Notes under the pieces: generated by a model
Databases searched by the model: none
What the model saw: the letters and a program-made list of their open reading frames with translations, nothing else
What the model was told of the DNA's origin: nothing
Program-made: the position numbers and the translations under genes
Shown here: positions 36,595 to 41,367 of the stretch, piece by piece
Layout: each line of letters starts with the position of its first letter
How positions within the stretch are numbered: the first letter of the stretch is position 1
DNA from: Deltaproteobacteria bacterium
GTDB taxonomy: Bacteria; Desulfobacterota; Desulfobaccia; Desulfobaccales; 0-14-0-80-60-11
Length of the DNA stretch: 60,727 bases
Reading direction: 5' to 3'
Assembly: GCA_030018495.1 (NCBI GenBank)
Contig: JASEFS010000021.1
Coordinates: 1-60,727 of the forward strand

Positions 36595-36767
36595 CTTACT
36601 CAGCCAACTCTCAGGCCCTTAGGCTCGGGCATAGTCGAGCCTGCCGCCAACGCTCTTCCTGCCTTGTTTCTCTCCAAGCCTGAGTGGCCGCCGCCCCTCT
36701 TGAAACTGTCTCAGACAAAACTTAAATAATTGTTATGAACGGCAGCACCAAGATAGAGGAAACAGCG

Positions 36768-37238
36768 ATGCAAATCGGCAGAATGCGGCGGTTTTGGGGC
36801 TCCCAAACCTCGGTGGGCATGGCCGGAATTTTGCAGAACTTGCAAAATATCATCGTTGTGGCCGTCTGCCTGCTGATGTTTTGGATTATGCTGGTGCAGA
36901 TCTATCAGACCAGCCTGGAAACACTGGAAACGAAAAACTTCCGCGCCATCGCGGGTCATCTTATTTATATCTTTGTTTTAATTGAGCTTTTCCGTTTGAT
37001 GATTTATTATCTGGAGGAGCAGCGCATCCTGCTGGGCTCCATCATTGAAGTGACCGTTGTCAGCATTCTCCGGGAAATCATCCTGGAGGGCGTGCTGAAC
37101 GTGAGCTTGGACCGGCTGCTGGGAGTGTGCGGTCTGATTCTCACCTTGACTCTGACGCTGGCTTTGTACCAGTACCTGGAAAAAGGACGGGCCAAGCTGG
37201 AGCAAATAACCATCCCCAAACCCGCGCCGCGGGCTTGA
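36768..37238 (+). CDS. psiE: PsiE family membrane protein
   Basis: A 156-residue inner-membrane protein with four predicted transmembrane helices and the LVQIYQTSLETLETKNFRA and LLGSIIEVTVVSILREIIL blocks of the phosphate-starvation-inducible PsiE family. The function is not known even in E. coli. ATG 36768 with AGAGGAAA is favoured over ATG 36735. Confidence 0.8.
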   Translation: MQIGRMRRFWGSQTSVGMAGILQNLQNIIVVAVCLLMFWIMLVQIYQTSLETLETKNFRAIAGHLIYIFVLIELFRLMIYYLEEQRILLGSIIEVTVVSILREIILEGVLNVSLDRLLGVCGLILTLTLTLALYQYLEKGRAKLEQITIPKPAPRA

Positions 37239-38599: not shown

Positions 38600-38685
38600 G
38601 GCGCGGTTTAAAGTTGCTGAGATTGAAAAATTAATCCTTGCTTGCGAAAATGGGGAAGTAAAATCCGTTTATAAATATAAAAACG

Positions 38686-39279
38686 ATGAAGCTGCCTGCA
38701 ACCAATCCTTTTGAAAAGGTCTGCGCCAAAAAGCGGGGCATTGACCGGTCCGTCCTGGAGAGCGTCATCAGCTTGGCTGTGGAGATAGCCCGGGAAGGAC
38801 GCGAGGGCCGCAAGATCGGTACCATGTTCACCGTTTTCGATGCCGAAGAAGTGCTTAAGCGCTCCAAATGCCTTATTCTGGATCCGCTGCAGGGCCATCC
38901 CGATCATGTCAAGCGCGTTGATAACCACGACATGCGGGAAACCGTCAAAGAGCTGGCCCAGTTGGACGGGGCCTTCGTGGTTGATGATAAGGGCGTGGTG
39001 GTCTCGGCCTGCCGCTATCTGAACGCCTCCTCGGAGGGGATCGAACTGCCCCTGGGTCTGGGGTCCCGCCATATGGCCGGGGCCTCCATCACCGGGGCGA
39101 CCAAGGCCGTGGCAGTGGTGGTATCGGAAAGCGCCATTGTCAGGGTGTTCGACAACGGCCATCTGGTCAGCGAAATTATCCCGGAAATCTGGATGCTGAA
39201 CCGCTACAGTCTGCACCTGACCCAGCCGTATGATGAGAGAACCGAAGAGCAGCTTACGGTAGTGAGCAAAGAAGAATGA
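38686..39279 (+). CDS. Diadenylate cyclase (soluble, single DAC domain)
   Basis: A 197-residue protein that would make c-di-AMP from two ATP. Visible DAC motifs are the catalytic DGAFVVDDKG (Asp-Gly-Ala) and the ATP-binding GSRHMAGASITGATKAVAVVVSES. It has neither the membrane helices of CdaA nor the long DisA C-terminus. The RHMA form resembles archaeal DacZ-type enzymes, an inference. Start ATG 38686 with no strong ribosome-binding site. A universal stress protein gene starts 19 bp after its stop. Confidence 0.82.
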   Translation: MKLPATNPFEKVCAKKRGIDRSVLESVISLAVEIAREGREGRKIGTMFTVFDAEEVLKRSKCLILDPLQGHPDHVKRVDNHDMRETVKELAQLDGAFVVDDKGVVVSACRYLNASSEGIELPLGLGSRHMAGASITGATKAVAVVVSESAIVRVFDNGHLVSEIIPEIWMLNRYSLHLTQPYDERTEEQLTVVSKEE

Positions 39280-39298
39280 TTGCCTGCCGGTGGCATTT

Positions 39299-40126
39299 AT
39301 GACGATTTTTCAGCGGGTAATGGTAGCCGTGGACGGCTCCCCGGCCAGCTTGTACGCCCTGGAGCAGGCTCTGCGGCTGGGCGGCGAGCTTGCCGCGATT
39401 GCTGTGGCGCCCAAGGCCTCTTACTCGGGACCGGGCGCCCCGCGGCAGGAGGTTGAAGACAAGGCTTTAGCCCAAGCCGCGGCCCTGGCCCGGGCCGCGG
39501 GCGTTTCCCTGAAAACTCTTTCCGACCAGGGGGAACCCCACGAACGCATCATTGCTGCTGCAGAACGCACCGGGAGCGACCTTATCGTGGTAGGTTTGAA
39601 GGGGAGGGACCTTCCCGCCGCGGCGCTCATGGGCAGCACTACGGCCCGGGTCATCGGCTTCAGCCCCGTGGATGTGCTGGTGGTGCCGGAGCAGGCCGCC
39701 GTCAGTTTATACAAGGTGCTGTTGCCCACGGACGGCTCCCGGTACAGTCAAAAAGCGGCGGGCCGGGCTCTGGAGATATGTGCCGCCCGCGGCGGCGAGC
39801 TTAAGGTGATTGCGGTCCTGGATGCACCGCCCGGCTTTATGGCGGCCGCGCCGGAGGCAGCCGCAGATTTGCTTGCCGGACTAAGAGATATTACCGCCGA
39901 AGTGCAGACCCGCGCCCAAAACCTGGGTCTTTCATGCCAGGCCGAAGTGCTGCAAGGGTCGGCCTTTCAGGCAATTACCTCGGAAGCCGCCAAGTGGCAG
40001 GCCGGCCTGATAGTCATGGGTTCCCACGGTCGCACCGGCTTGAAGCGCCTCCTCATGGGCAGCGTCACCGAGCGGGTCATCGGCTTCGCCCCCTGCCCGG
40101 TGCTGGTGGTCAAAGGCAGGGCCTGA
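39299..40126 (+). CDS. Tandem universal stress protein
   Basis: A 275-residue protein with two UspA domains. The first begins RVMVAVDGSPASLYAL and ends GSTTARVIGFSPVDVLVVPE; the second begins KVLLPTDGSRYSQKA and has the nucleotide-binding GSHGRTGLKRLLMGSVTERV. The second repeat fits ATP-binding USPs. Close linkage to the diadenylate cyclase suggests a shared nucleotide-signalling role; USP domains of some KdpD kinases bind c-di-AMP (family knowledge). Confidence 0.88.
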   Translation: MTIFQRVMVAVDGSPASLYALEQALRLGGELAAIAVAPKASYSGPGAPRQEVEDKALAQAAALARAAGVSLKTLSDQGEPHERIIAAAERTGSDLIVVGLKGRDLPAAALMGSTTARVIGFSPVDVLVVPEQAAVSLYKVLLPTDGSRYSQKAAGRALEICAARGGELKVIAVLDAPPGFMAAAPEAAADLLAGLRDITAEVQTRAQNLGLSCQAEVLQGSAFQAITSEAAKWQAGLIVMGSHGRTGLKRLLMGSVTERVIGFAPCPVLVVKGRA

Positions 40127-40243: not shown

Positions 40244-40320
40244 GCGCCCATAGCTCAGCTGGACAGAGCAACGGACTACGAATCCGTGTGTCGGGAGTTC
40301 GAATCTCTCTGGGCGCGCCA
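40244..40320 (+). tRNA. tRNA-Arg (ACG), CCA encoded
   Basis: 77 nt folding as a cloverleaf: acceptor GCGCCCA / TGGGCGC, D-stem GCTC/GAGC, anticodon stem ACGGA/TCCGT with loop CTACGAA (anticodon ACG), T-arm with TTCGAAT, discriminator G, then CCA. Followed by a terminator. Confidence 0.95.
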
Positions 40321-40698
40321 GTGATTTCAAGGGGTTAGGCCAAAAAGCTTGCCCCTTTTTTTGTGGTATGCACATAGTGTGCACGCTTGCAGAATAAAGG
40401 GGTAAAAAAGTGGAGTTGTGGGCTTGTGCTGCATATGGTAAGAGCATTTTTAAAATTCTTCTCTGGCCGAACCGATAAGGGAAGAAGGAGGACGACATTC
40501 AAAGACAGGGGTTTAAATCCCCCCGCCAGCCTCAATAATTTCAGGGGGTTGAACTTAGCAAGCGCAAGAAGAATTGTTGACATATCCCAAATTAATCATT
40601 AATGTATAGTTGAGCGGTGAGACCTATGCAGGTCCTTGGGGCAGGGTTCTTCCATCGGTAGAACAAACCTCGGGACCATGGCCTGCAAGGCACGCTCT
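40321..40698. other. Region after tRNA-Arg with tRNA-like 3' fragment
   Basis: Holds a small palindrome TGCACA-TAG-TGTGCA (40369-40383) and, near 40500-40533, a T-arm-like segment (GACAGGGGTTTAAATCCCC...) resembling the 3' end of a tRNA or tmRNA without its 5' half. Such fragments are typical of integration sites. No integrase is seen. Confidence 0.4.
40329..40362 (+). terminator. Terminator after tRNA-Arg
   Basis: AAGGGG pairing with CCCCTT, followed by a run of seven T in total. Confidence 0.75.
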
Positions 40699-41367
40699 TT
40701 ATTTTTTGGGCGGTAAGTAGACATCATCATAGCGGACCTTTCCCCGGAAGATTTCATACCAGGTCGGGTCTTCCCGTTCATACTTACGAAAAATACCCCA
40801 ACTAAAGAGGTCTGCCGCTTGAAGGCAAAAATTATCTGAAGAAATTTCATGAGTAATCCTTAGCCGAACTTTTGGAGGTATTCGTTCTCCTATCTGGCGC
40901 TTTATATAGCGATTAAATTCCTGAATTTGGGCGCTCCTTTTTCTCTTATCCAAGACAAGATTAACGGCTTCATCGGCGCTTTCAAAAGGAAGCTGTTCAA
41001 GGATAAGGCGGGCGAGATAATTATAAAGCCGTTCTTTTTGGTTCTGTAATTCCGGAAAAAGCCGATCTTTGTTTAAAGTGAGGGCATAAATTCCGAAATG
41101 CACACCGGCTACCTGGCGGAAGAAGTATTCTTTAATATTAAGAGTGGTCGCGCTCCCCTTCAGTTCCTGAACAATTCTTTTCCTTTTCCTTTTTGGATTC
41201 AACTTACGTTTAATGGTTTTTTGAACCGCCAGGGCTACGGTTCGGTGCCTGGTGCTGGTGCTTATGGCCAGGATGCAGATTGTAAAAAATCTGGATCGGC
41301 CCCTTCTATCCGGACTAAATCCCAGGTCGCCGCTTTCGTCTAAATAAAGAAACCAAGGGCCAGCCAT
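40699..41367 (-). CDS. DUF3800 domain protein
   Basis: A 222-residue protein starting FLYLDESGDLGF, the DUF3800 signature, with a C-terminal LQAADLFSWG as in the family, predicted RNase H-like fold. Function is unknown; members are often in mobile or defence-type islands. Codon use and base composition are visibly less GC-rich than neighbours, suggesting transfer. It lies 380 bp after tRNA-Arg. Confidence 0.85.
   Translation of the reverse strand: MAGPWFLYLDESGDLGFSPDRRGRSRFFTICILAISTSTRHRTVALAVQKTIKRKLNPKRKRKRIVQELKGSATTLNIKEYFFRQVAGVHFGIYALTLNKDRLFPELQNQKERLYNYLARLILEQLPFESADEAVNLVLDKRKRSAQIQEFNRYIKRQIGERIPPKVRLRITHEISSDNFCLQAADLFSWGIFRKYEREDPTWYEIFRGKVRYDDVYLPPKK

Follow-up and report, generated by a model that had tools for sequence, protein, structure and literature searches.

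The DNA analysed here, a 60,727-nucleotide window of a deltaproteobacterial contig (JASEFS010000021.1), encodes a diadenylate cyclase (DAC) followed by a tandem universal stress protein (USP; Table 1). Judged by its sequence, the former is a compact single-domain DAC of the DacZ/CdaZ clade, and probably acts as an accessory, stress-linked source of c-di-AMP beside CdaA; the USP would be an ATP-type stress protein and not a receptor of this nucleotide. We consider the DAC to be the more interesting half of the pair, being a compact DacZ-type variant around which stress genes recur. Knowledge of c-di-AMP comes mainly from Gram-positive bacteria, cyanobacteria and euryarchaea. The two observations with which the initial annotation had begun, a soluble DAC carrying an RHMA-type motif (PF02457 at 65 bits, GSRHMAGA) and a two-domain USP 19 bp further downstream (stop at 39279, ATG at 39299, two PF00582 domains), were both confirmed. 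The USP gene has an in-frame GTG at 39290 as an alternative start. No terminator was predicted in the gap between the two genes, where the scan gave nothing above chance, and the single weak promoter-like match found between the kinase and DAC genes did not exceed chance either.

Table 1. Features of the DAC locus, in window coordinates.
Feature	Position	Strand	Evidence
PsiE-family membrane protein gene	36735-37238	+	PF06146, 42 bits
Divergent PAS-HisKA-HATPase_c sensor kinase gene, 451 aa	37244-38599	-	Pfam
Intergenic region of the divergent kinase/DAC pair, 86 bp	38600-38685	.	Promoter scan
DAC gene, ATG start, 197 aa	38686-39279	+	ORF; PF02457, 65.1 bits (cut-off 27 bits)
Gap from DAC stop to USP ATG, 19 bp	39280-39298	+	Sequence
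Tandem (two-domain) USP gene	39299-40126	+	Two PF00582 domains (E 1e-58); tandem USP fold

The best curated match of the DAC is the archaeal DacZ model NF041371 (E 8e-40), CdaA and CdaM reaching only 4e-5. The alignment covers positions 122-268 of the 270 of the model, i.e., the C-terminal DAC domain only, and scores 136.9 bits, below the equivalog cut-off of 430. Over 149 aa, the protein is 40% identical to the haloarchaeal DacZ of Haladaptatus. It shares the DAC domain, a non-Arg third residue of the RHx motif and SES with archaeal DacZ/CdaZ and the long bacterial forms (290-340 aa), but lacks their N-terminal PK_C-like domain and begins at about model position 122. With CdaA/DacA, DisA, CdaS and CdaM, it has in common the PF02457 fold and the DGA/RH catalytic core, whereas it carries RHM and SES in place of their RHR and SEE, and is devoid of transmembrane or helix-hairpin-helix domains. 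The hallmarks of CdaA, namely N-terminal transmembrane helices, RHR and a CdaR partner, are likewise absent. The CdaA of the same genome reads RHRAA, haloarchaeal DacZ GTRHHAA, long bacterial DacZ RH[M/V/L/I]AA, and the compact clade RH[M/V/L]A, mostly RHMAA; a non-Arg third residue therefore marks the whole DacZ side that was sampled. In an AlphaFold model (mean pLDDT 85), which includes an extra C-terminal beta hairpin, the best-ranking PDB structures are without exception DACs of the CdaA/DisA/DacM type (query-normalised TM scores of 0.47-0.57). A PDB sequence search with the single protein gave no match, while a profile search did.

Compared with the DGA and GxRHRxA motifs, the protein (LDGAFVV and GSRHMAGA) keeps DGA (residues 94-96) and the R and H of RHR, with Met as the third residue (SRHMA, 127-131), and has SES at 147-149. 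Replacement of the second Arg of RHR and of the second Glu of SEE could be taken as a sign of degeneration, whereby the fold would have been kept to bind ATP or c-di-AMP after synthesis was lost, and broken or frameshifted copies do occur in relatives (L026). We regard such a loss as quite improbable. The catalytic Asp, Gly, Ser/Thr, Arg, His and Ser are retained together with family and fold, and the core residues are invariant across 43 sequences. The same or equivalent replacements are found in DacZ relatives, including haloarchaeal DacZ, a family that produces c-di-AMP in vivo in Haloferax volcanii (PMC6741144). In CdaA of Listeria monocytogenes, the motif residues listed for the active site are Thr, Arg and His, the second Arg being absent from the list (PMC7288161).

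Across the 84,980 species genomes scanned, 203 relatives of the compact DAC were found, many of them in metagenome bins; they are scattered over about 10 bacterial phyla as read from record titles, including Desulfobacterota, Actinomycetota (Rubrobacter), Chloroflexota, KSB1, Acidobacteriota, Planctomycetota and Elusimicrobiota. A quick tree places the compact forms, with several phyla scattered among them, on a single branch (SH-aLRT 96) that is distinct from the long bacterial DacZ. Among 395 Desulfobacterota genomes, 18 encode a compact DAC, 66 a long DacZ-type protein and none both (3 expected, P 0.03). Bacterial members of the DacZ branch were already noted by Braun et al. (2019), who predicted a PK_C-like N-terminal fold for them (PMC6741144); the compact form differs in lacking it.

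The association with stress is drawn from the neighbourhoods of these relatives, as no HSP20 gene lies near the DAC of the window. Neighbour counts were made over 93 distinct loci, many from metagenome bins and with shared ancestry ignored, and are thus to be read as enrichment and not as exact probabilities. HSP20 accounts for 18 genes in 11 of the 93 loci, from at least five phyla, where 1.0 gene was expected from the 199 HSP20 genes present in 192 Mb. Loci in which HSP20 stands beside a compact DAC include L021/L030, L045, L059, L065, L066, L078, L091, L170 and L177. A literature search for a link between diadenylate cyclases and small heat-shock proteins gave nothing on point. Histidine kinases were found within two genes of the DAC in 18 of the 93 loci, representing 21 of 347 near genes vs. 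2 of 396 distant genes (p 7e-6), or 9 of 261 vs. 1 of 305 once Rubrobacterales are set aside (p 0.007). In Rubrobacterales, a kinase with a cyclic-nucleotide-binding domain is encoded directly upstream of the DAC, and a related kinase occurs in Bryobacterales. Such kinases adjoin or lie near the compact DAC in L049, L062, L064, L095, L098 and L107 (Rubrobacterales) and in L106 (Bryobacterales); DUF924 and MFS transporter genes often follow the DAC in Rubrobacterales. Finally, a DHH/DHHA1 phosphoesterase gene directly precedes the compact DAC in three KSB1 loci and in Pyrinomonas (L065, L066, L079, L090). This arrangement likely represents a synthesis-degradation pair, and it fits an active synthase.

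Ion transporters are the other candidate partners. The DAC could work chiefly with them, leaving its stress-gene neighbours incidental, as might be suggested by the haloarchaeal dacZ-mscS2 operon (PMC6741144), by a c-di-AMP riboswitch located ahead of a KimA-like gene in the genome under study, and by an Na+/H+ exchanger gene found directly upstream of a paralogous DAC both in this genome (G000 contig C44) and in CG07, the pair being kept at 77% identity across two genera. This role in cation homeostasis appears unlikely, considering that the DAC of the window has no adjacent ion transporter, that exchangers adjoin the DAC in only 2 of the 93 loci, and that the enrichment of HSP20 is far stronger. 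The paralogous compact DAC of these pairs (63% identity) lies 34-38 bp behind the exchanger gene (L025:5520-7360 on C44; L105:63-1872), and in L105 the pair is followed by an MFS transporter gene and by the gene of a single-domain USP. In a third genome, the exchanger-type paralogue is frameshifted (L026:6444-6978, G016 C58), either as a decaying copy or through an assembly error.

In the window itself, a regulatory candidate is the divergent PAS kinase, for which the initial annotation had suggested control shared with the DAC. A full-length orthologue (64% identity) was recovered in only one of the nine related genomes searched (G016). In that genome, it again lies divergently, 1.5 kb from a compact DAC, together with PsiE (position -4 in L030) and three HSP20 genes. 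The PAS kinase is plausibly part of the same locus as the DAC, and since G016 again has both this kinase and PsiE close to its DAC, the idea of shared control has some support. A broader and more tentative proposal, which we would rate as rather unlikely, is that the compact DacZ clade constitutes a horizontally spread c-di-AMP synthase without a regulatory domain, dedicated to proteostasis and stress loci and switched by neighbouring sensor kinases (PAS kinases in Desulfobaccales, cyclic-nucleotide-domain kinases in Rubrobacterales and Acidobacteriota), so as to produce a heat- or envelope-stress signal separate from that of CdaA.

The initial annotation had also cast the USP as the receptor of the c-di-AMP made next to it, a signal that it would then relay. 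The two genes are adjacent on the same strand, and KdpD-type USP domains, marked by the motif (A/G/C)xSxSx2N(Y/F) and the lack of a Walker A motif, can bind c-di-AMP (PMC8214093). The KdpD motif is absent from both domains of the USP, whereas the Walker-type ATP motif G-x2-G-x9-GS is complete in each (GLKGRDLPAAALMGS and GSHGRTGLKRLLMGS, at residues 102 and 244 when counted from the GTG), in agreement with the G-x2-G-x9-G(S/T) of ATP-type USPs (UspFG). Moreover, the loop of ATP-type USPs has been argued to clash with c-di-AMP (PMC8214093), and the stand-alone USPs that were assayed in Staphylococcus aureus did not bind it (PMC4686210). The USP of the window has the USP fold in common with the KdpD receptors of S. 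aureus, but is a stand-alone tandem protein with an ATP motif in both domains. The best matches of its AlphaFold model (mean pLDDT 85) are tandem USPs, including 3loq and the ATP-bound TTHA0350 (3ab8). It shares two USP domains and the overall fold with tandem ATP-binding USPs (TTHA0350, Af 3loq, Rv2623 and UspE), while being only ~21-27% identical to the solved structures.

Genomic context points the same way. Conservation of the pair across genomes had been set beforehand as a test of the receptor idea, and a profile built from the USPs of the genome itself detected a USP within two genes of the DAC in 3 of the 93 loci, as an immediate neighbour only in the window. USP domains near DACs amounted to 5 vs. 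2.4 expected from the 2.5 USP domains per Mb measured in 46 of the locus genomes, which is not significant (P 0.09), and, given the ~20 USP genes of the genome, a chance USP neighbour for the DAC is ~1% likely. The closest homologues of the tandem USP (47-51%) are common in the class, including in genomes without a compact DAC, and in G026, G027 and G028 they are sited away from it. A different, single-domain USP is encoded two genes downstream of the paralogous DAC in two relatives, in the orders antiporter-DAC-MFS-USP (L105) and DAC-MFS-USP (L026), so that proximity to a USP arose twice in the DAC family; this recurrence speaks in favour of a receptor. Overall, a maker-receptor relationship retains a very slim chance. 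The motifs, the lack of conservation and the background counts all led to the receptor role being rejected for the USP. Conservation of the DAC-USP pair was sought without success, both over the 93 loci and within the class. Most likely, the tandem USP would be a stress protein that binds ATP and is co-transcribed with the DAC.

Several other components of c-di-AMP signalling are predicted in the genome, which encodes two compact DACs. CdaA and a CdaR/YbbR-like neighbour lie on contig C63, away from the window. The genome also has genes for four RCK_C proteins and for an 824-aa 7TM-HD protein (PgpH-type). No GdpP was recognized among the DHH matches of the genome, which by inspection correspond to RecJ and a CBS/CCA-type protein. 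A single c-di-AMP riboswitch (RF00379, 98.8 bits; G000 C33:25800-25937, minus strand, L205) was found ~310 nt upstream of an APC permease gene that is KimA-like by sequence inspection only.

From these elements, a scheme can be proposed for the DAC as an accessory synthase. Without the N-terminal pyruvate-kinase-C-like domain, which it lost or never had, the protein would most likely self-associate through its DAC domain and, as its family and residues suggest, condense two ATP into c-di-AMP. It would supply this nucleotide under stress-linked control alongside the housekeeping CdaA, the link to stress being carried over from its relatives. Since the DAC itself lacks a sensory domain, control must stem from expression, oligomeric state or a partner, and would probably be local, through transcription or a neighbouring sensor kinase. 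The c-di-AMP pool would be removed by PgpH and read by the riboswitch that precedes the KimA-like permease gene, and possibly by the RCK_C proteins; we infer this wiring from the predicted components.

Downstream of the gene pair, at 40244-41367, lie a tRNA-Arg(acg) gene and, after it, AT-richer DNA (44% GC). No second copy of the 3' end of the tRNA, sought in the window as a mark of integration, was found. This stretch is possibly a small island, and its minus strand carries an ORF (40699-41367) whose product appears DUF3800-like by eye.
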